Positions 50,092-62,643 are shown, numbered from the stretch's first letter. The stretch is DNA of 64,000 bases from Planctomycetaceae bacterium (GCA_014762625.1 JABURQ010000097.1:56451-120450); one strand, 5' to 3'. Notes: a model not told the origin generated them from the letters alone. Made by a program: numbers and translations.

Positions 50092-51819
50092 TCAACGTGA
50101 GAGTTCATCCTCCACCAGCCAGAGAGTTTCCCAACCCTCTAATTCAGTCGTCCCATTATGCTCAAATCGACGGCCCGTGAGCAAATCGGAAACCGTTTTC
50201 GGCAGATCCTTCGAGGGAAGCGACTGAGGCACACTGCTGACATTCGTGAAGCACCAGATCGATTGCTCACCCGACTGAGATGTTCGTTGAAACGCAACGA
50301 CTGCTGGATTGTCCTTTGAAAACACCTCCTGTCGCGCATCGGGATGAAACGCGGATTGTTTCGTGCGAACATCCAATAGATGGCAATAGCCCTGGTAAAC
50401 GTGTGCCGAGACAGAATTTTCATTGCCGAGAACTGCTTCCAGTTCCGATCGTTCAAACTTCCGACGGTTAATGGACCGAGCGCGACCGGTTTTCTCCATC
50501 CCGACGACATCGTTGAGCGTTCCCACCAGACTGTGAAAATAAATCCCCGGAATACCCTGCAACGTCAGCATGATCGACTGGCTCGCCAGGAATCGTTTCG
50601 CGTGCTGCTCTGCGGGAAGACCGTCTGGTTCATCGAGCGCGGACAAATAAGTGATATTCAATTCATAAGGACTCTCACTGCCGTCCGGATTGCGTTTCAT
50701 GCTGATCTGCCCGCCGCGAGCTTGCACGTTTTCCAACAGCCGCGCAAATCGTTCTCCTTCCACCAAACCTTCCAGCGGTCGCACACCGATCCCGTCGTGA
50801 GACGCGGTGAAATTGAAATAGGTGGTTCCCGCTTGCGGCGGTTCGAGATTCGACAACCACGCGAGGAGCGGCGTCGCGTCTTCCGAGAGAAACGCATCAA
50901 GCAGCAGTGGAGCCAGCGAAAACTGATACACCATTTGAGCTTCGTCGCCGTCTCCGAAATAGCTGACGTTTTCTTTATGTGGCACATTGGTCTCGGAGAT
51001 CAGAATCGTCCCCGGAGCATAGGCATCCAGAACGTCTCGCATCAGCTTAACGACCTCATGGGTCTGCGGCAGGTGAATGCAACTTGTCCCCAATTCTTTC
51101 CAGAGATAGGCAATCGCATCGAGACGCACCACTTCCGCCCCCTGCTTTGCATACATCAGCAAGACGTCCAACATCTCGATCAGGACGTCGGGATTCTCGT
51201 AATTCAAATCGACCTGATCGGCAGAAAACGTCGTCCAGACATGTTTGAAACCGGACGGCGTCTCAAATGCCGTCAACAACGGCAAACTGCGCGGGCGCGT
51301 GACCAGTGCTAACCGTGCATCTTCCGGATCGGCGGTGATGAAATAATCCTTGCCGGGTGCTTCGTCTTTCAGAAATTCCTGAAAATACTCACTCGACGCC
51401 GAACAGTGATTGAGCACCTGATCGAACATCAGTCGAAAATATTGTCCGATGTCGGTGACGTCATCCCAGTCCCCCAGTTCGGGATCGATACGTCTGTAAT
51501 CGACGACCGAAAAACCATCATCCGAGGTATAGGGAAAGAAAGGGAGAAAGTGGACGCCTCGGATTTTCCGATCGAGTTCCCGATCGCACAGAAATTGCCT
51601 CAGCGTCGAGATAGGAGCTTCGCCTTCGGATCTCACCATATCGCCGTAGGTGATCAGGATACCATCTCGCTCATCCCACCAGGAATCTTCGAGTTCGCGG
51701 GGAGGCGGAACCGGTTCGAGTTTCGCTTCGAGTTTCGCCAGCACCGCTTCCGCCCGCTCTCCGTACAGGAACTCCAGGCGTTTTCTCATCTTCGCACGAA
51801 CAGCGTCATCCAAGCTCAT
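50092..51819 (-). CDS. GH13_18-like glycoside phosphorylase (sucrose/glucosylglycerate phosphorylase-like)
   Basis: GVHFLPFFPYTSDDGFSVVDYR; VVRLDAIAYLWKELGTSCIHLPQTHEVV; TASHDGIGVRPLEG. Confidence 0.85.
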   Translation of the reverse strand: MSLDDAVRAKMRKRLEFLYGERAEAVLAKLEAKLEPVPPPRELEDSWWDERDGILITYGDMVRSEGEAPISTLRQFLCDRELDRKIRGVHFLPFFPYTSDDGFSVVDYRRIDPELGDWDDVTDIGQYFRLMFDQVLNHCSASSEYFQEFLKDEAPGKDYFITADPEDARLALVTRPRSLPLLTAFETPSGFKHVWTTFSADQVDLNYENPDVLIEMLDVLLMYAKQGAEVVRLDAIAYLWKELGTSCIHLPQTHEVVKLMRDVLDAYAPGTILISETNVPHKENVSYFGDGDEAQMVYQFSLAPLLLDAFLSEDATPLLAWLSNLEPPQAGTTYFNFTASHDGIGVRPLEGLVEGERFARLLENVQARGGQISMKRNPDGSESPYELNITYLSALDEPDGLPAEQHAKRFLASQSIMLTLQGIPGIYFHSLVGTLNDVVGMEKTGRARSINRRKFERSELEAVLGNENSVSAHVYQGYCHLLDVRTKQSAFHPDARQEVFSKDNPAVVAFQRTSQSGEQSIWCFTNVSSVPQSLPSKDLPKTVSDLLTGRRFEHNGTTELEGWETLWLVEDELSR

Positions 51820-51844
51820 CCGTTCTTTCCTTATTGTCGTCCCG

Positions 51845-53122
51845 TCAATCCGCTTCGAGATCGTCCGAACCGGTCACGTTGCAGATGAGCGCCCGCAACT
51901 TTCGTCGTAATACCGAATAGCTGAAAAAGAGATTTGAAAGCTCGTAGTTCTTCTCGACCATCGCTTCGCGATACTCGGCATCGTCCATCACTTTGCGAAC
52001 GTGATTGATGACGCGATCGGTCAGAATCCCTTCTGCCGTCACCACTTGAAATCCGCGCGGCTCGATATCGGTGATGAAGATCGAGTAACGATTCACGACG
52101 ACTGGTTTCTTGAAATAAAACGCTTCCAGCAGAGCGTTGCCGAACCCTTCGTAAATGCTGAAATACGTCACCAGATCGGCGTGAGGATACACATCTTCCA
52201 GCGAGTAAATCTTCTCACCGTCCGGTCCTTCTTCCCGATGATCGCCGATTCGTGTGTGCGCGAACCGCAAATCGACGCCCGCCTGTTCGGCCTGATAGAT
52301 CAAAGCGTTCAGATAATCATCCCCTTCGTCGCCCGACTCGTGAGTCACGACCAGTTTGTAGCGAGGATCCTTCAACTGCGCGAGCAGATTAATCGCCTGT
52401 TCGATTCCTTTTCGTGGAACGACCCGCGTCGGTTGCAGCACTAGGATATCGTCCTCGGTGAGACCGATTTCGGTGCGGAAGTCGCTGGCGTATTCGTCCT
52501 GTTCCGGAGGGGGAGTTTCGAAATCAATCACGTTGGGAATCAGAATCGACGGACACCCTTTGCGGTGCGCGAGATCCTGCTGGGCGGGTGTGTTGATTGT
52601 CACGTGCTGGATCGACGGCAACGACGGCGGAAACGACATCTGTAGAAAGTCCGCTACCGAATTGACGGAAAAGCGATCCCGTTCCCAGGAAAAGTCGTGG
52701 TGGTGCGCGATCACCGGAAATTCGGTCTCAGCGATAAAATTGGTCAGTGCGATCCCCAACGGAATATGCATCGGAATCGTGAGCGCATTCTGAGCGATCA
52801 TGATGTCGATATTGAAGCGTTCGACGAAGTCGTACAGCGTCCGCTTCAGCATCGCCGCCATGTCGTTGATGCGACGCGTCAAATCGGGAGACCGCCGCAT
52901 CCGTCCGAACGCTTCTTTATTGATGGCGAGATTTTCAGGATGACCGAAGAACGCTTCGGGAACCGTCATACTGATGTCGGGATGACGGTCGAGCTTGCCG
53001 GCGTACCAGTAACTGACATGCTTGTGATGCCAGAGAATCTCCGCCCATTTTGCGCTTTCCAGAGAAACGCCATCCGTTCCCGCGAAGCGGGTCGAAACAA
53101 AGCCGATATTTTGAGGACGCAT
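51845..53122 (-). CDS. Glycosyltransferase family 4
   Basis: [77 protein letters not shown]. Confidence 0.87.
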
Positions 53123-53217
53123 CGCCTCGTTCTCTCCTGATATTCAAGATATCTAATCTGACTGGCGGTCTCTTAAGCTGCGAGGCTGTCTGTGTGCGTG
53201 TGTAAAGACCCTGTTAA

Positions 53218-54108
53218 TTATCCAACTCCCAGCGCCGTAAGCAACTGCCGAAGATCGGTTACCACCAAATCGGGATGAACTTCCCGAACGCGGTCGTCTC
53301 CCTCGCGACACCGCAAACTGCGCGCATCTCCCGCAAATAAAGCGGTTTTGAAGCCGATCGTTGAGGCCGGCCAGATATCTTTCAACATATCATTCCCGAC
53401 GTAGAGTGTTTGTGCGGGTGAAATCCCCAACGTATCCAAAGTATCGGCTGCCTGTTGATACAGATACTCTCCCGGTTTGGCGCGGAGATAACGGTACGAA
53501 TAAAAACGTAAATCGTCACGAAAGCCGAGGTCATCCAGAGACGCATCACAAAGTACGGGGAACAGCAACGGTGTAAAAAACTGAGCGTTACTGATGAGAC
53601 CCAGTTCCCGACCGGTCTCTGCCATCTTCCGTATCGTTTCCGTTATTCCGGGCATCGGCCAGACCGGATTCACCCGACATTCGTACTCGACAGCCAACTG
53701 TTCGCACAAAATCGGCGTCAGCACCACATCGCTCCATCCCTCTTCACAATAACGATTCAGGACATCCCGCCAGACCGCCAGAATATCGATCTCCGGATAT
53801 TGAATGTCTTCGAGACGATGACGCTCCTGATGAGCGAGAATCGTTTCATGCAAAACAGCGACTCCATGTTCAGGATCGGGCAACACCGGCAGACCAACCG
53901 CCTGCATCGCCGCGATCAACGCCTTCGCCGGAACCGTCTCCGCATGCGCGCCGATATCTCCACTGCCGCTGATCAGCAAAGTCCCGTAGATATCAAACAG
54001 GACCGCCTTGATCTCATCAAGCACGTGAATCCTCGGGCTTGTCGCCGTATCGATCGCTTCCAGGGGATGAGAAAGTTCGGCAATGATCTCGTTAATCGCA
54101 TCCGTCAT
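53218..54108 (-). CDS. HAD-superfamily hydrolase
   Basis: AVLFDIYGTLL (motif I), LISNAQFF (motif II), AKPGEYLY, YVGNDMLKDIWPAS (motif IV). Confidence 0.85.
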   Translation of the reverse strand: MTDAINEIIAELSHPLEAIDTATSPRIHVLDEIKAVLFDIYGTLLISGSGDIGAHAETVPAKALIAAMQAVGLPVLPDPEHGVAVLHETILAHQERHRLEDIQYPEIDILAVWRDVLNRYCEEGWSDVVLTPILCEQLAVEYECRVNPVWPMPGITETIRKMAETGRELGLISNAQFFTPLLFPVLCDASLDDLGFRDDLRFYSYRYLRAKPGEYLYQQAADTLDTLGISPAQTLYVGNDMLKDIWPASTIGFKTALFAGDARSLRCREGDDRVREVHPDLVVTDLRQLLTALGVG

Positions 54109-55658
54109 GGTTCCACTCGCAATGGCTGAAATCGAGTCAGTTTCAGGAACCCGTCACGCACCGCCCCCGGTGATTCGGCAGCGTCTAACGCTCCAGGTTC
54201 AACTTCCAATAAGCTCTGATAAATATTATGCAAAGTTCTACCGGTCGACTCCAAAGAGAACTCGTCCAGAACCGTCTCCGCATTGGTATCAATCGCCATC
54301 TGTTGTGCGATGCGATCGTCTTTGAGAACCGATTGCATCACAGGATTCAGCGCGAGAACACGATCAACTTCGGCGGGAGACGCGACGAGTCGTTCGATGA
54401 GCCTCGCCTGATGCGACCGCGTGAAGACGGCAAAATCGATGGTGTCTCCCGCTATCAGGGCGTCAAATTCGGTTTGTAACTCTCCCTCATCCGGCAACGC
54501 GAGACCGAAGGCCCGCAAGACTCCACAATAGACCTTCAGAAAATCCTCCCGAACACGTTCCAGATCGACTAGATCGATGGGGATCAGGACGTGCGCAGCG
54601 AGTTGCGGGTACCAGAGCCCTACCTGTTTGAAATCGTGAGTGATCTCCGGCAGATCGCGACCACACAACGGCTTTCCCGCCAACCAGGCTTCCAGAAACA
54701 CCATGCCGAACCCTTCCGCGACACTCGTCGTCAGAATGTGATCGGCAGCCGCAAGATTCTCTTCAAACGTTAACGACGGTTCGGCTCCGATCTCCCAGCG
54801 ACAGGGAAGTTTCAAGCGTTCGGAGAGCGACTTCCATTCCTCGTAAGACGATCGTTCGATCGGATTCGCGGGAGGAAGCGTCAACGCCGTCACAAACTCT
54901 CCTCGTCCCACAACCGACCACAACAGCATCTCCCCCACATTCTTTCGGCGGATTCCCCGCACCGGATAAACCAATAGATGCTGGTCTTTTTCGAGATCGA
55001 AAACCTCATTCACTTTCCGGCGTGCGACCTCAGCTTGAGGAAGTGATTTAAACGCAAAAACCGGGTTCGGCAACAGGTGAAGTCGATCCCCTGGCACTCC
55101 CGCCTGCAGAAATATCTCGCGGTCTCGACCGTTCAACACCGCATAATGAATCTGTTTCGCCTGAGGATAAACCTGCCGACCGAACGTCCGTGTCGAATCC
55201 TCCGCCAGAGTCTCCTGCAGATGCCGATAATTGTCGGGACGGAAATCTTCCGCGAAATCGTGAATCTGAAGTAGCCAGCGCCACCCCTGCTCAGTGAGCT
55301 GCTCAATTGCGGAGAGGAACGCTACATTTTTACCGAGTGAGTGATTGTGAGCGTGCAGAATGGTGTCGGACGGATGGAAGCCCAACTGCTGCAATGTCCG
55401 CATCAGCTTCTCGGACAACTGGTCGGCGACAGAGCCACGTTCGGAATCATATTCGAGTTCCGGCAGAGAATGGGCACGAATTGGAAATTCGGCGAGATCC
55501 TTCAATTCCGCCGGCACTCCCGCATCCCGACCTCCATACAGCAGGGCCACCTGCTCGAGCTGTTCGGGACAAAACTGCTGAAGAGCGCGCAAGTGATTGA
55601 GAATCACCGACGTCACTCCGCCCCGATTCAGGTGGAAGTGAATGACGACAAGTTTCAT
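54105..55658 (-). CDS. Glycosyltransferase (GT4-like)
   Basis: HFHLNRGGVTSVILNHLRAL; ILTTSVAEGFGMVFLEAWLAGKPLCGRDLPEI; 4-nt overlap with the HAD gene. Confidence 0.8.
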   Translation of the reverse strand: MKLVVIHFHLNRGGVTSVILNHLRALQQFCPEQLEQVALLYGGRDAGVPAELKDLAEFPIRAHSLPELEYDSERGSVADQLSEKLMRTLQQLGFHPSDTILHAHNHSLGKNVAFLSAIEQLTEQGWRWLLQIHDFAEDFRPDNYRHLQETLAEDSTRTFGRQVYPQAKQIHYAVLNGRDREIFLQAGVPGDRLHLLPNPVFAFKSLPQAEVARRKVNEVFDLEKDQHLLVYPVRGIRRKNVGEMLLWSVVGRGEFVTALTLPPANPIERSSYEEWKSLSERLKLPCRWEIGAEPSLTFEENLAAADHILTTSVAEGFGMVFLEAWLAGKPLCGRDLPEITHDFKQVGLWYPQLAAHVLIPIDLVDLERVREDFLKVYCGVLRAFGLALPDEGELQTEFDALIAGDTIDFAVFTRSHQARLIERLVASPAEVDRVLALNPVMQSVLKDDRIAQQMAIDTNAETVLDEFSLESTGRTLHNIYQSLLEVEPGALDAAESPGAVRDGFLKLTRFQPLRVEP

Positions 55659-55900
55659 AATACTAATAACTTACAGTATTTTCAGTATCTCAGGATCATA
55701 CCCGGTTTCATCCCCCAAGACACGCTTAAAACCGTCCGGGAACGGTCGAGGTCGAGTCACTGAGAATCGGCCCGAAACACATAAAATCCGACCTTTCCGA
55801 ATTTGGGAGTCTGCGATAAACTTCCTTCACCACACTTTTTCCACTGTGTGAAAACGACATGCGCTAAGTCGGAATACGAACTGGCGGGAAGGATTCTGCC

Positions 55901-57223
55901 ATGCGACCTCATTCTGTTCGCCTGCTACTGGCGGGACGATTGCGCCTTGGGGAACCGATACGTACCCCTCTTCCCCTCACCGACGAGTCGCGACACATCG
56001 CGCTCGATTCGACGTTGAACGCCTGGAAGCAGATCCAAACCAGTGCTCTGGACCGCAAAGTCGATACAGTGGTCCTGAATGGGGAGACGGTCGTTGCTGA
56101 CCGGCTCACTCCGGTCGCAGAACACGCCCTCCTCGAAGGGTTGGAATTTCTGGGGGAAGCCGGAATTCCGGTTCTGATCCAGCCGAGTGAAACCGACCCC
56201 CTCTCCTTCTGGAAACGAGTGGTCTCGGAACTTCCCCAACATCGCCACATAACTGTCGTGACTCCTCAGACATCCAGCGAGTTTTGGCTCGTGGAGGAGA
56301 ATTCGCGTCGATTCATCGTGACCGAATATCCCGATTCCCACGAAGAACAAAATCACCAGGCTCAAACAATCGCCCGCTTCGTGTCGATCTCCAGTACGTC
56401 CTCCAATCCGCAGAACGAACGAAACGAGTCGATCGATGACCGTCAACTTCCCGTCATTCACATCGAACCTGATTCCGATGAGTCACTCCAATTGCGAGAC
56501 GGAGTCGATCTGAAACTCACTCCAGACGGCGCGACCTGGAAAAATGACGAATATCAATCGGTACGACAGGATCGTTGCGGAGCGCCGCAACCTCTCTCAA
56601 GGGAGGAAGCAGAACGTTACGACGAAGCAGGCTGTCTGCTGATCGAGATTCCCACGAGGGGAGCGATTCAAACCGAGCGACTGTCTACGGCCGCGGTCCG
56701 GTTTCACACGACCAGACTCGATCTCACGGAATGCGACGACTGGGACGACGCCGCACTCAGTCTGCAAAACCAACTCGAAGACCTCGCCTGGGAACCGTAC
56801 GAACGACTCCGTCTGGTGACCTGGTCGGTGGCGACACACGATCCTCTCTCCACACAATTGCTGAACGGAGATGACAGTCATCTCATTGCCGCCTGGAATA
56901 ACGCTTTCGCATCTCATCATCACGACACGATAGTCATCCACGGATTTCAACCGGCCGGTCAACTCCCGCTCGACCTCGAATCCGCCTGTTCCGGACGAGA
57001 ACTCGCGGAGGCCCTGACTGAAATCGAACAATCCGCCGACCAACCCGAAGTCGATCGACTGGCGGCGGTCTGGGCGACCGACCTATCCTCCGCCTCTCTG
57101 CTCACCGAACTTCGTCCCGTTCTGAATCCCGCTCAGATCGGTGCCTACGCGGAATCGGTGATGACTCAGTGGCTGACCCAAAGTGACCCGGAGAATCTCC
57201 CGCATGAAAATTACTCATCTTGA
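55901..57223 (+). CDS. Mre11/SbcD/YhaO-like protein with degenerate metal-binding motifs
   Basis: Gene order with SbcC-like ATPase; aligns by eye to Mre11 motifs as LLAGRLRLG, DTVVLNGETVV, IPVLIQPSETD; later APQPLSREEAERYDEAGCLLIEI resembles the SPQ...E..GC.LVE region. Confidence 0.65.
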   Translation: MRPHSVRLLLAGRLRLGEPIRTPLPLTDESRHIALDSTLNAWKQIQTSALDRKVDTVVLNGETVVADRLTPVAEHALLEGLEFLGEAGIPVLIQPSETDPLSFWKRVVSELPQHRHITVVTPQTSSEFWLVEENSRRFIVTEYPDSHEEQNHQAQTIARFVSISSTSSNPQNERNESIDDRQLPVIHIEPDSDESLQLRDGVDLKLTPDGATWKNDEYQSVRQDRCGAPQPLSREEAERYDEAGCLLIEIPTRGAIQTERLSTAAVRFHTTRLDLTECDDWDDAALSLQNQLEDLAWEPYERLRLVTWSVATHDPLSTQLLNGDDSHLIAAWNNAFASHHHDTIVIHGFQPAGQLPLDLESACSGRELAEALTEIEQSADQPEVDRLAAVWATDLSSASLLTELRPVLNPAQIGAYAESVMTQWLTQSDPENLPHENYSS

Positions 57224-60200
57224 AATCAATCGATTCGGCGTCTGGCGGAATCTCTCTCTGCCGCTCTGTTCCCCCGAATTGAATGTGATATTCGGTCCGA
57301 ATGAAGCCGGAAAAACGACCCTGATGCGGTTTCTGCGCGGCGTCTTGTTCGGATTCTCCGATCGCGAAGGCCTCAACGCTTCCCACCCTCCCAGCGGTAT
57401 GCTGGAAGTGGAGCACGAAGGTGGAAACTACCTCATCGAGCGTACCGGCGCTACTCTGTCTATCACGGGGGATCGGGAACTCAAAGGGGACGACGCTCAG
57501 ATTTTTTTGCGGAAGATGCTCGGACAGGTCACCAAAGAGGTCTTCGATAACGTCTGCTGTTTCGGTCTCGACGAATTGCAGGAACTTTCCGTCCTCTCGG
57601 GAGAGGAAATCGTCGAGAAACTGTTCGGAGTCTCTCTAGGGCACAAAGGGAAATTCATTCTCGCCGCCCTCAAAGACGCCGAACGTCGCAAACAACAAAT
57701 GACCCTCGGCAGCGAGCACAAAATCTCGATTCGTCGACTCATCACCGAACACGATCGCTTGAGTCGGGAACTGGAGGATGTCGGTGATTCGCGGGAACGA
57801 CTCGGGCGTTTCAAACAGGATCTGCTCAAAATCGAACAGACCATCAGCGACCTGCAACGAAAACAATCGAAGCTTGAAGAAGAACGGGACGGCTATCAAT
57901 TTCTGCAGCGCGTGCACGGTCCCTGGAAACAGGTTCGCGACCTGAACGCCAAGCTCGACAAAATCCCCGAGGTGGAGGAATTTCCGGAAGACGGCATCGC
58001 CCGTCTCGACGAACTCGAAAGCGATCTCGATGTCCTGCTGGAAGAACGTTCCGCCTTGCAGTCGCAAATCAAAGAACTGGAAGAGGAACGACAGCGAGCA
58101 GAAGATTCCCGAGACATTCTCAACGAACTCCCCGCGATTCGCGTCCTCCTCGAACAAGCCGAACAACTCGACACACACAACGATCTCCCCGAGCAAGACC
58201 GCGCGGAAATACAACGCCTCGAAGAAACTCTCCATCAGAAACTCTCCGAGTTGGGAGACGACTGGACATCCGATCGACTCGAACGCCTTCACCTCACCCC
58301 CGAGCAGCAACAGGCACTCTCTCACGTCGCACAGGACTACGAACGCAGCCTCAAACGTCGCGCTCGCCTGCGTCGAAAAATCGAACAGTTGTCGAAAGAA
58401 AACCAGAAAGAGCAACAGGAACTCGAGCGGCAATCCAGTACATGGCAGGGACAATCCGGCGCGCAAATGCTGGAACGGACGGAACGTCTGCTGAATTCGT
58501 CGCGCGATCGAGAACGCCTCAACATGCGCGCCGAACAACTCGACAGTCGTCTCGAACTGCTCGAACAACAACAGCAATCGCTCATCGACAAAGAGCCGCT
58601 ACCGAAAGGCGTCCAGTACCTGCTTACCGGGTTTACGGTTGCCGGAGCGATGCTGGCCGTCGCCGGTGTCTGGAAAGGGGTCAGTACCAGCGGACTGGCC
58701 GGAGCGGTCTATTTCCTGCTGGGCTTAACGTGCGGCGGTCTCGGATTTGCGCTGCAATGGCACTTTCAAACCGAACAGGAAGAAACGCTCGGCAAACTCG
58801 AACACGAAATCAATCAACTCAAACAGCAAAGAGCCGAGATCGCCGCCAAACTGGAAGCTCTCGGTCAGACGGAACAACCGACCGACCTCTCTTCTCTCAC
58901 GGGCAAACTGGCCACCTACCAGAAGTGGATCGACCGGGAAGCGGAGTGGCAAACCAAACGCAAACAGGCGTCTGGCTTGCGTGCCTCCCTCAACGAACTC
59001 CGCCGCGATCTCGCCACTCACCGCGAGCAATGGCTCCGCACGCTCCGCGACATCGGACTGAAAGAAACCGTCAAGGTGAGTGAAGGCTGGGACTCCTGGA
59101 ACGCCGCACTGGAACTGAAATCCCTCCAACATCAGATCGCGACAATCCGCGAGAAACACTCTCATTCGGGGGAATTGCGTCAGGTGTTTGAATCGTCGAT
59201 CCGAAAGGTTCAGGAAAGGATCAGCCACTCTCCCGTCCACATACCAACGAACGAAACCCTCGACACCTGGCGGGATCGGATCTCAGAATGGACGGCACTC
59301 TGGCAACGACAGCACGAAATCAGATCCGAACTCCAATCGCTCCAATCGAGACTCAATCATGTCGATGCGGAGATTCAATCGCTCCGCTCCCGTCACTCGC
59401 AACTTCTCGCCGAAGGAGGAGCCCACGACCGGCGCAACTTCGACCAGCGGGCTCAATGGTATTTCGAACGACGTGAACTGCACGAGCTCATCACCATGGC
59501 CCAGGAGGAACTCGACCGCACCACTCAGGAAGAGCAGAGACTCGCCATCTTCGAAGACGACCTGCTCGAATATCACGAGGAAAACACGCGGGAACGGCTT
59601 CTGAAATTGTCGCAGCAACTCGAAGCTCTCGAAACCGAACTCACCGCCGCCTACGAAAAGCGGGGCAAACTGAGACAACAACGGGACGCCATTCTCCACG
59701 ACCGCCGCGAGTCGAAACTTCGCCAGGAACTCGCCGAAGTCGAAGAGCAAATCAAACAACAATGCGAACATTGGCTCGGAATCGATCGCGCCGAGCAAGC
59801 CATCTCGCACATCAAATACAACCTCGAACGGGAACAGCGCCCTGCCACCCTGCAACGCGCCGAACAATACTTCCGCATGCTGACGGCAGATCGCTATCGC
59901 CGGGTCTGGGCTCCGCTCGGAGAGCACGACCTGCACGTCGAAGATCACGCCGGCCTCGCCCGACAGCTCAACGAACTCTCCGGCGGTACGCGGGAACAAT
60001 TACTGCTGTCGTTACGCCTGGCGCTCGTCGAAGAACAGCGAAACGAAGGCGTCCACCTGCCGTTTATTCTGGACGATATACTCGTCAACTTCGACGAAAC
60101 GCGTGTGAACTCAGCGATGGAAACCTTACAGGAATTCTCGCAACACGGCACGCAGACCATTCTGCTCACCTGTCACTCGCACCTGGCGGACGCCTTCGCC

Positions 60201-60263
60201 GACCGCGACGTTTCGGTCACCAACCTCCCAAGGCGCGAACAGGGTGAACGATTAGCGGGTTGA
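57204..60263 (+). CDS. SbcC/YhaN-like AAA ATPase with central TM hairpin
   Basis: Walker A FGPNEAGKTTLMRFLRG; signature LSGGTREQLLLSLRLALVEE; Walker B LPFILDDILVNFDETR; long coiled coils; hydrophobic pair near 58600-58765; ORF opens at 57183. Confidence 0.88.
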   Translation: MKITHLEINRFGVWRNLSLPLCSPELNVIFGPNEAGKTTLMRFLRGVLFGFSDREGLNASHPPSGMLEVEHEGGNYLIERTGATLSITGDRELKGDDAQIFLRKMLGQVTKEVFDNVCCFGLDELQELSVLSGEEIVEKLFGVSLGHKGKFILAALKDAERRKQQMTLGSEHKISIRRLITEHDRLSRELEDVGDSRERLGRFKQDLLKIEQTISDLQRKQSKLEEERDGYQFLQRVHGPWKQVRDLNAKLDKIPEVEEFPEDGIARLDELESDLDVLLEERSALQSQIKELEEERQRAEDSRDILNELPAIRVLLEQAEQLDTHNDLPEQDRAEIQRLEETLHQKLSELGDDWTSDRLERLHLTPEQQQALSHVAQDYERSLKRRARLRRKIEQLSKENQKEQQELERQSSTWQGQSGAQMLERTERLLNSSRDRERLNMRAEQLDSRLELLEQQQQSLIDKEPLPKGVQYLLTGFTVAGAMLAVAGVWKGVSTSGLAGAVYFLLGLTCGGLGFALQWHFQTEQEETLGKLEHEINQLKQQRAEIAAKLEALGQTEQPTDLSSLTGKLATYQKWIDREAEWQTKRKQASGLRASLNELRRDLATHREQWLRTLRDIGLKETVKVSEGWDSWNAALELKSLQHQIATIREKHSHSGELRQVFESSIRKVQERISHSPVHIPTNETLDTWRDRISEWTALWQRQHEIRSELQSLQSRLNHVDAEIQSLRSRHSQLLAEGGAHDRRNFDQRAQWYFERRELHELITMAQEELDRTTQEEQRLAIFEDDLLEYHEENTRERLLKLSQQLEALETELTAAYEKRGKLRQQRDAILHDRRESKLRQELAEVEEQIKQQCEHWLGIDRAEQAISHIKYNLEREQRPATLQRAEQYFRMLTADRYRRVWAPLGEHDLHVEDHAGLARQLNELSGGTREQLLLSLRLALVEEQRNEGVHLPFILDDILVNFDETRVNSAMETLQEFSQHGTQTILLTCHSHLADAFADRDVSVTNLPRREQGERLAG

Positions 60264-60280: not shown

Positions 60281-61486
60281 CTATTTCCGCGCGTCGCGGA
60301 GCTTCTGCAACAGATCTTTCACCTCGTCCTGAACCTCACGGGTATGCTTCACGATAATCAAGCCATTGAGCGAAGAGATCGCCCCCGTTCCGCCGTTGTC
60401 TGACCATGAGTCAGGTTCGATGGTCGTCGTGATGACCTCGACGAGTTGACCTTCAGGAGTTGCCGGCGGCATCTTCGGCATTCCGAGCATCATACCAGAT
60501 CCCATGCCACCTCCCATGCGGCCCACGCTTCCATATCCCTCACCGCCACCGGATACTCCACTGCCGAATCCGGCACCACCTGCTTCTGCCCCATAACCCC
60601 CGCCACCTCCAGAGGCTTCGAAACCGAAATCGCCGCTCGTTTTTGAGGTTCTGGACCGAGAGTCAGCAGGCCGCAGCAAGTCGCTGCAATTGTAGATGAC
60701 GGTCTCGTAAGTCTCGAATTTCTCGGTGATCACGATCATGTTATCGCGGATCGTATAACCCAGTTGGTCTCCATTGACGATAGACTTGATCGCGTATTTG
60801 ATCAATGTTTTGGCGGAAACTGTCCCTTCGGGAAACTCCAGCGTAATCAATTCTCCAGAATCAACGATCCTGTCGCGCTTGAGTTCGATCTTGGTGATGA
60901 CGGGATCCAGAAAGATCGTCACTCCGAGTTCGTCGCCCAGCTCGGCCAGCAGCGCATTAAACGGAAGTTCGACAATATTTTGCTCCGGCAACGGCTGGGA
61001 TAGTTTACGCTCGATCTCTTCCTTACTCCCCTGAAACGGGTGATCGACCAGTTCCTGACCGACTTGTGCATCAACCTGTCCCGCCGGATTCAAAGAATTG
61101 CTGTCCGCAGCCTGGGGGACTTTGAGGTCGCTTTGAGCAACCCCCTGCGATGTCATCGGCGGTTCCGATCCCGGCCAGAAAGTGGCCAGTACGAGAATCG
61201 AACAGGTCATGGCGGCGATAGTTCCATAAGTGTAGCGCATGAGACGTCTCCTTCGATGGTGATGGGCAATGTTTGTGAAGTGATGGGCCAGAGCGGCCGT
61301 GTCTCCGAAATCTTCGAGAGCGGCGGCGATCGCCTCTTCTCGTGAGGATCCCGATTCGAGGAGATCCTCCATTCGTTCTTCGAGATGCGAACGCAACTCG
61401 TCAGAAATATTGTCGCGCTGTTCGGGACTCAGTTGGAGCAACCCCGTCAGCAACGATAACCAGTTTTCAAATTCTTGTTCGGACAT
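60281..61486 (-). CDS. HAAS/permease-prefix-like N-terminal domain, TM, STN-like domain, Gly-rich linker, secretin-N-like C-terminus
   Basis: MSEQEFENWLSLLTGLLQLSPEQRDNISDELRSHLEERMEDLLESGSSREEAI...; TM CSILVLATFW; ELPFNALLAELGDELGVTIFLDP; VEVITTTIEPDSWSDNGGTGAISSLNGLIIVKHT. Confidence 0.7.
   Translation of the reverse strand: MSEQEFENWLSLLTGLLQLSPEQRDNISDELRSHLEERMEDLLESGSSREEAIAAALEDFGDTAALAHHFTNIAHHHRRRRLMRYTYGTIAAMTCSILVLATFWPGSEPPMTSQGVAQSDLKVPQAADSNSLNPAGQVDAQVGQELVDHPFQGSKEEIERKLSQPLPEQNIVELPFNALLAELGDELGVTIFLDPVITKIELKRDRIVDSGELITLEFPEGTVSAKTLIKYAIKSIVNGDQLGYTIRDNMIVITEKFETYETVIYNCSDLLRPADSRSRTSKTSGDFGFEASGGGGGYGAEAGGAGFGSGVSGGGEGYGSVGRMGGGMGSGMMLGMPKMPPATPEGQLVEVITTTIEPDSWSDNGGTGAISSLNGLIIVKHTREVQDEVKDLLQKLRDARK
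61173..61486 (-). repeat. ~314-bp near-identical direct repeat, copy 1
   Basis: Nearly identical to 62330-62643 at an offset of 1157 bp, compared by eye. Confidence 0.85.
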
Positions 61487-61590
61487 CGCATTTTCGATTC
61501 TGGATTTGCGATTTGGGATTCAACGGTTGGAACATGAACTTGAAGAAGAGCGACCGCTGTACCTGAGACGTTATCGTCAGTATGTGTTTC

Positions 61591-62643
61591 TTACTGATCC
61601 ATCTTCTCCCGCAATTTTTCGAGAAGTTCTTCTACCCGCTCGTGGATTCCGGGCAACGTCTGCACGACGAGGTAGCCTTTGAATGCCGTTATACTTCCCG
61701 TATTAGGATCAACTGCCGTCCCATCATCCCAGGGGCAATCAGCATCCCTGATTGCTGCCTGAATCACACCAATGAGCCGCGTCTCGTCCTGCGTGGAAGG
61801 CATTGAGGATCTCTCCATAGTAAGCGATGAGGAGCCACCATATTCCCCACCTCCCAACTGCTGATCAATCACCTCTTGAGAATTGGTCTTGGATTTCTCT
61901 CTCTCTATCAGATCGCGGCAGTCATAGACAACAATCTCTCCACCTCTTTCCAGATATTGATCGTACGTCGTCACCATCAAAAAGTTATCTTGGATGATAT
62001 ACACCAGATCCCGCGGCCCAAGAATAAAGTCCTCCAGCATTGTTTTAAGAGACATGCTGTCCGGCCCTGTCGCCAAAACGAGTGGCTCCTCTAAATCGAT
62101 TTCGTCCGCAACTTTCGGATCGATTTCAATAGCGACTCCCTTATTGACAGCAATATCCTTAAGAACTTCCCCAAACGGCACTGTAAACCATTCTCCGGGA
62201 TACGGCTGGGCTAAGATCTCTTCAATCCGTTCGCGGCTCCCATCGAAAGGATCGGAAGATTGCACATCGGCGATCTCTTTCTCATCTGACTGTGCCACAA
62301 CAGTCTGAATCGCTGGACCGTCGGCATGGGGCCAGAACGTGGCCAGGACAAGAATCGAACAGGTCATCGCGGCGATGGTTCCGTAAGTGTAGCGCATGAG
62401 ACGTCTCCTTCGATGATGATGGGCAATGTGTGTGAAGTGATGGGCCAGAGCGGCCGTGTCTCCGAAATCTTCGAGAGCGGCGGCGATCGCCTCTTCTCGT
62501 GAGGATCCCGATTCGAGGAGATCCTCCATTCGTTCTTCGAGATGCGAACGCAACTCGTCAGAAATATTGTCGCGCTGCTCGGGACTCAGTTTGAGCAACC
62601 CCGAGAGCAGCGATAACCAGTTTTCAAATTCCTGTTCAGACAT
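61591..62643 (-). CDS. HAAS/permease-prefix-like N-terminal domain, TM, STN-like C-terminus (paralog of 60281..61486)
   Basis: First ~105 aa differ from the neighbour at three positions by eye; TVPFGEVLKDIAVNKGVAIEIDP STN-like segment. Confidence 0.7.
   Translation of the reverse strand: MSEQEFENWLSLLSGLLKLSPEQRDNISDELRSHLEERMEDLLESGSSREEAIAAALEDFGDTAALAHHFTHIAHHHRRRRLMRYTYGTIAAMTCSILVLATFWPHADGPAIQTVVAQSDEKEIADVQSSDPFDGSRERIEEILAQPYPGEWFTVPFGEVLKDIAVNKGVAIEIDPKVADEIDLEEPLVLATGPDSMSLKTMLEDFILGPRDLVYIIQDNFLMVTTYDQYLERGGEIVVYDCRDLIEREKSKTNSQEVIDQQLGGGEYGGSSSLTMERSSMPSTQDETRLIGVIQAAIRDADCPWDDGTAVDPNTGSITAFKGYLVVQTLPGIHERVEELLEKLREKMDQ
62330..62643 (-). repeat. ~314-bp near-identical direct repeat, copy 2
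   Basis: See copy 1. Confidence 0.85.

Follow-up and report, generated by a model that had tools for sequence, protein, structure and literature searches.

Whether the main job of Mre11-Rad50 complexes is to cut DNA or to tether it is a long-running question, and it is raised again by two overlapping genes in a Planctomycetaceae bacterium (GCA_014762625.1). They lie in a 64,000-nucleotide stretch of DNA (JABURQ010000097.1:56451-120450), hereafter the window, whose positions are counted from its first letter (Table 1): a gene for an ATPase of the YhaN type and, directly upstream, a gene for a YhaO/Mre11-like protein that we call pseudo-YhaO. What would such a pair do if its nuclease subunit has lost the residues for cutting? 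That the ATPase is a hairpin-type YhaN with a Mre11-fold partner is secure, and we consider it probable that the two form a clamp or sensor of DNA, driven by ATP and anchored in the membrane: a YhaN/YhaO-type Mre11-Rad50-like complex with a dead, structural nuclease subunit.

The type of the ATPase can be read from its head. The N-terminal head matches Pfam AAA_27 (PF13514), the head of YhaN-type ATPases, with an E-value of 5.6e-16, scoring 59 bits where 22 would suffice, whereas the curated Rad50 model PRK03918 scores the protein at 30 bits, far below its cut-off of 700. These scores bear out the YhaN/YhaO type proposed in a first-pass annotation of the window. The ABC/SMC (ATP-binding cassette/structural maintenance of chromosomes) head motifs are complete, and most of their residues are invariant or nearly so when 21 and 47 relatives are aligned; Walker B has DD where DE is usual. 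An AlphaFold2 model built from 47 sequences, with a mean pLDDT (predicted local distance difference test) of 82 and values of 60-79 around the hairpin described below, retrieved Smc5/6, condensin, MukB and Rad50 in a Foldseek search, Rad50 heads among them. The initial call of an SMC/Rad50-like ATPase thus stands, and its coordinates, its frame and the 20-nt overlap with the upstream gene were all correct. With SMC proteins (Smc5/6, condensin, MukB) the window protein shares an overall folded-rod architecture, but its apex is a hydrophobic hairpin instead of a globular hinge and its partner has a Mre11 fold. The pair resembles Rad50/SbcC with Mre11/SbcD in head architecture, coiled coils and a phosphoesterase-fold partner, and differs in having neither a CxxC hook nor catalytic residues and in carrying a membrane-type hairpin at the apex.

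The partner gave no significant match in Pfam, NCBIfam or PADLOC. AlphaFold2 models it with a mean pLDDT of 76, best in residues 10-120, and the 50 Foldseek matches listed for this model are Mre11/SbcD throughout, the top one at E 1.5e-10 with prob 1.00. The match is one of predicted structure only, with moderate TM-scores of 0.4-0.5; a profile built from the aligned relatives of the partner also retrieves Mre11 and SbcD chains. A weak match to SAVED (E 0.11) was dropped as the identity of the partner because the fold search gives Mre11. The active site was scored at eight Mre11 positions, which we take to be D8, H10, D49, N84, H85, H173, H206 and H208 in Pyrococcus numbering. None of the eight is retained in the alignment of the window protein, in which the DxH, GD, GNH, H and GHxH metal/catalytic motifs are all missing; G61, just before the residue that replaces the metal-bridging aspartate, is the sole invariant residue of the partner alignment. 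The predicted fold, the motif survey and the co-occurrence of the two genes (see below) agree with the earlier description of the upstream gene as degenerate and Mre11-like.

Of the partners scored from beyond the planctomycete clade, nearly all retain 8/8 residues, the exceptions being L044 (7/8) and L118, whose row is partly N-masked. Within the clade the partner is degenerate in every member scored: most Pirellulales relatives have 3-5/8 residues left, the usual losses being N84/H85 and H206, and members of the window's own family, the Planctomycetaceae, have 0-2/8. In a tree rooted on the type-B sequences introduced below and built by a 'quick' method, the 83 planctomycete rows form one clade with a support (Shimodaira-Hasegawa-like approximate likelihood ratio test, SH-aLRT) of 99, and the window's family is nested within it with a support of 100. 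As the supported clades are nested and the residue counts graded, the loss looks progressive along the planctomycete lineage. A clade-wide pseudo-nuclease is well supported by these alignments, and this clade-wide death of the nuclease subunit, not the hairpin, is the real oddity of the locus.

Rad50 and SbcC carry a CxxC zinc hook at the apex. In the window YhaN, an uncharged hairpin (residues ~470-518) lies midway between the two coiled-coil arms, where AlphaFold2 draws a helix at 468-490, a 5-residue turn and a helix at 496-553. The two top 19-mers of the protein in Kyte-Doolittle (KD) hydropathy, 472-490 and 498-516, fall here, the third best reaching 0.90. Among shuffled copies a single 19-mer of KD 1.6 is not rare (419/2000); a pair with such spacing arose in 9/5000. 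The decisive evidence for the reality of the hairpin is its conservation: a 19-mer of KD >= 1.6 occurs at the same place in 102/102 full-length relatives of the branch and a second of KD >= 1.2 in 101 of them, KD reaches 2.95 in relatives, and charged residues make up the small percentages listed in Table 1, versus 34-37% in the flanking coiled coil. There is no CxxC anywhere in the window YhaN, and the few in relatives occur towards the C-terminal end (L012, L028), elsewhere off the apex (L004) or, in one case, inside a hydrophobic helix (L088). The two adjacent hydrophobic stretches, the probable membrane hairpin at the apex and the missing zinc hook, all noted in the first-pass annotation, are therefore confirmed as conserved features. 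From this pattern we infer that the hairpin is inserted in the membrane as two putative transmembrane helices; with two such helices and a short loop, the two arms would project from the same face of the membrane. Profile searches also matched the middle region to the pore-forming toxins MakA and Nhe, which was set aside as a chance likeness between long helices that flank a hydrophobic stretch.

The alternative that survives best is that the hairpin stays out of the membrane and acts as a protein hinge that joins two YhaN rods into a tip-to-tip dimer in place of the zinc hook. The hairpin does occupy the site of the Rad50 hook and the SMC hinge, packing is possible for Gly/Ala-rich helices, and the charge-free stretches are only ~20 residues long with a short turn. 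Two such charge-free helices in 102 relatives, with the hydropathy peaks given above, nevertheless fit a membrane hairpin better, and the soluble type-B YhaN relatives have no such stretch, so we consider a hinge of this kind unlikely, although hinge and membrane roles could go together.

The hairpin had been put forward as a feature of this locus. It is present and at the apex, but it is not peculiar to the window gene: all 102 relatives of the branch have it, and it is common to the YhaN branch, including Bacilli with intact nuclease partners. Bearers were found in Chloroflexi, Deltaproteobacteria, Acidobacteria, a Methanoculleus metagenome-assembled genome, Fluviicola, Paenibacillus, Sporosarcina and Fervidibacillus, and Listeria YhaN has the same hairpin (KD 2.57 and 2.11) beside an intact YhaO. 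The Bacilli pairs (Listeria, Sporosarcina, Fervidibacillus, Paenibacillus) resemble the window pair in the order of the adjacent or overlapping genes, the AAA_27 head and the mid-protein hairpin, and are unlike it in a YhaO site of 8/8 against 0/8. Type-B YhaN-like proteins, annotated as YhaN family protein in Pseudosulfitobacter, likewise have an AAA_27-type head and a Mre11-like partner directly upstream; unlike the window protein they are soluble, about 1150-1220 aa long and without the hairpin, stand beside an intact YhaO in each case seen and form a separate branch in the head tree. Since the hairpin is widespread in one branch and absent from type B, it marks one YhaN branch and is not an invention of the locus. 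No description of a hydrophobic hairpin at the YhaN apex was found in the open-access papers searched, which also yielded nothing useful on YhaN/YhaO, SbcE/SbcF or planctomycete Mre11. A viral or plasmid origin was rejected: viral contigs hold one distant relative (L151), of the soluble type, and the plasmid matches are remote and all cover less than 80% of the query, the two that were checked by annotation again being of the soluble type. Two further YhaN-like genes without hairpin were seen, one a second copy in a relative beside another degenerate YhaO-like gene beginning GSALRILQAGELCLNEPL (L152, G005:C1:174500-181000), the other encoding a 1206-aa ATPase downstream of a DnaK-like, not a Mre11-like, gene (L157, G016:C19).

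How firmly are the two genes held together? A survey of gene neighbourhoods, as suggested beforehand, bears out their co-occurrence: a YhaO-like gene clusters with YhaN in 62/80 loci, the misses including loci cut at contig ends, and nearly every locus with enough contig has an intact partner open reading frame (ORF) directly upstream of YhaN. The pseudo-YhaO start is preceded by a good Shine-Dalgarno sequence, and in relatives a stretch that encodes GKD/GKE occupies the corresponding position before the partner start. Both genes are intact and under purifying selection, with ratios of nonsynonymous to synonymous substitution (dN/dS) within the genus of 0.06-0.09 for YhaN and 0.17-0.32 for pseudo-YhaO, values that are rough because dS is near saturation. 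Besides the partner there are no conserved neighbours, no other gene being common to more than 6 of the 80 loci, so that no pathway can be named from the neighbourhood. This bears on the idea that the two proteins no longer act on DNA and have been taken over for another task, for example in the envelope or on polysaccharides, where they would form a membrane-linked ATPase scaffold and the dead Mre11 fold would serve as adaptor. Such a change would suit the family-wide loss of the nuclease site with ATPase and anchor kept, as well as the glycosyltransferase and amylase-family genes upstream of the pair in the window, but those neighbours are not conserved in relatives and the closest resemblances of the head are to Rad50/SMC proteins, which act on DNA; we regard the idea as quite improbable.

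A working YhaN/YhaO nuclease, in which the partner remains able to cut DNA and its apparent degeneration is a product of divergence or misalignment, could draw on the retained Mre11 fold, the conserved operon and the persistence of D8, H10, D49, H173 and H208 in some Pirellulales relatives. It has very little probability, given that the window protein keeps none of the eight residues at the aligned positions, that its motifs I and III read AGRLRL and PSETDP, and that the replacements vary between genomes, as expected once constraint is gone. An anti-phage defence system, Lamassu-like or of another SMC/ABC ATPase kind, is scarcely credible and was rejected, and the earlier suggestion of defence or DNA uptake is unsupported, since the weak matches to the PADLOC LmuB models (E about 1e-11) extend across both coiled coil and head, as they would in any SMC, the partner has no PADLOC match, Lamassu LmuA/LmuC genes were not found, with HAAS and PadR proteins encoded downstream, the 80 loci show no conserved defence neighbours, and YhaN is not patchy in the family, with a match in 35/36 other genomes searched. 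The sole family genome of the first set without a match (G010) is about 96% complete.

The window's genome has no SbcD match and no second YhaN, its other inspected AAA_27/AAA_23 matches being SMC, a Wadjet-type JetC-like protein and an unrelated ATPase. In the family at large the SbcD cut-off is exceeded in only 3/61 genomes, some 30 more have a strong partial match, mostly in a frame of ~380-490 aa, and five of these partial matches, when inspected, proved to be intact type-B YhaO. By this SbcD search neither kind of match was obtained in the other ~28, among them all three genomes from the genus to which the window belongs. The window's genome also encodes 11 metallophosphatases, and because these were not each inspected, the absence of an active Mre11-type nuclease is likely, not proven. 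A 1166-aa MukB/JetC-like protein with a JetA-like gene nearby (L067, G000:C13:48000-56000) is probably a Wadjet defence system of this genome.

For the membrane-anchored clamp or sensor that we favour, a plausible mechanism can be drawn by analogy. YhaN would fold back so that its two terminal halves build the ATP-binding head, from which a coiled-coil rod would lead to the tip, the two-helix hairpin in the membrane; both arms would lie on the cytoplasmic side, the hairpin fixing the far end of the rod. By analogy with SbcCD, pseudo-YhaO would form a complex with YhaN, sitting on the ATPase head, where it would not cut but might help to bind DNA or to control the ATPase, and the complex would bind DNA. 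ATP-driven closure of the head might then clamp or sense DNA near the membrane, most likely ends or loops. As the catalytic residues are gone, one would expect DNA to be held or sensed by the complex and not cut, which suggests a tethering or sensing role, conceivably the sensing of ends. Three points weigh against this reading: the hydrophobicity of the hairpin in the window protein is modest (KD 1.6-1.7), pseudo-YhaO is acidic with an isoelectric point of 4.6, though intact YhaOs are likewise acidic (median 5.1), and the near-saturated dS leaves the dN/dS values rough.

Table 1 Features of the YhaN/pseudo-YhaO locus, in window positions
Feature	Position	Strand	Basis
Shine-Dalgarno-like GGGAAGGA before pseudo-YhaO start	55886-55893	+	direct sequence reading
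YhaO/Mre11-like pseudo-nuclease, 440 aa	55901-57223	+	ORF; 8/8 Mre11 catalytic/metal residues replaced
Motif I remnant, DxH to RxR (R13, R15)	55937-55945	+	alignments
Motif II remnant, metal-bridging D to E62	56084-56086	+	alignments
YhaN-type ATPase gene	57204-60263	+	1019 aa; ATG at 57204, stop at 60263
Overlap of pseudo-YhaO and YhaN genes	57204-57223	+	20 nt; upstream stop ends at 57223
Walker A GPNEAGKTT, residues 31-39	57294-57320	+	G31, N33, G36, K37 invariant in alignments
Ascending helical/coiled-coil arm, residues 147-462	57642-58589	+	AlphaFold2 secondary structure
Hydrophobic helix 1, residues 472-490, YLLTGFTVAGAMLAVAGVW	58617-58673	+	KD 1.64; 2.4% charged (102 relatives)
Hydrophobic helix 2, residues 498-518	58695-58757	+	KD 1.72; 1.8% charged (102 relatives)
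Descending helical/coiled-coil arm, residues 519-877	58758-59834	+	AlphaFold2 secondary structure
ABC signature LSGGTREQ, residues 925-932	59976-59999	+	S926, G928 invariant (21 relatives), S926 (47 relatives)
Walker B and D-loop FILDDILVNFD, residues 954-964	60063-60095	+	D957, D958, N962, D964 invariant (one alignment)
H-loop TCH, residues 989-991	60168-60176	+	conserved in both alignments

Two minus-strand groups of genes flank the pair. Upstream, amylase-family, glycosyltransferase and HAD-hydrolase genes are clustered at 50092-55658, together with a gene for a 517-aa protein without a Pfam match. Downstream, two adjacent HAAS-domain genes (60281-62643) stand beside a PadR regulator; the HAAS genes are 96% identical over 300 nt (61173-61472 and 62330-62629) and differ elsewhere, a recent partial duplication.

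What the locus may mean reaches beyond the window. It is possible, though we advance it tentatively, that throughout the Planctomycetaceae a Mre11-Rad50-type machine has become a DNA clamp or sensor that is tethered to the membrane and free of nuclease activity, and that this is the sole such complex in a good part of their genomes, including those of the window's genus. If it is the sole Mre11-Rad50-type complex left, its role would be to hold DNA at the membrane and not to cut it. The widespread YhaN branch, Bacilli included, has a conserved hydrophobic hairpin where Rad50 has its zinc hook, and in the planctomycete lineage cutting has apparently been lost with ATPase, pairing and anchor kept, in a graded series from intact through half-lost to lost, which would make the question of cutting or tethering testable by comparison.

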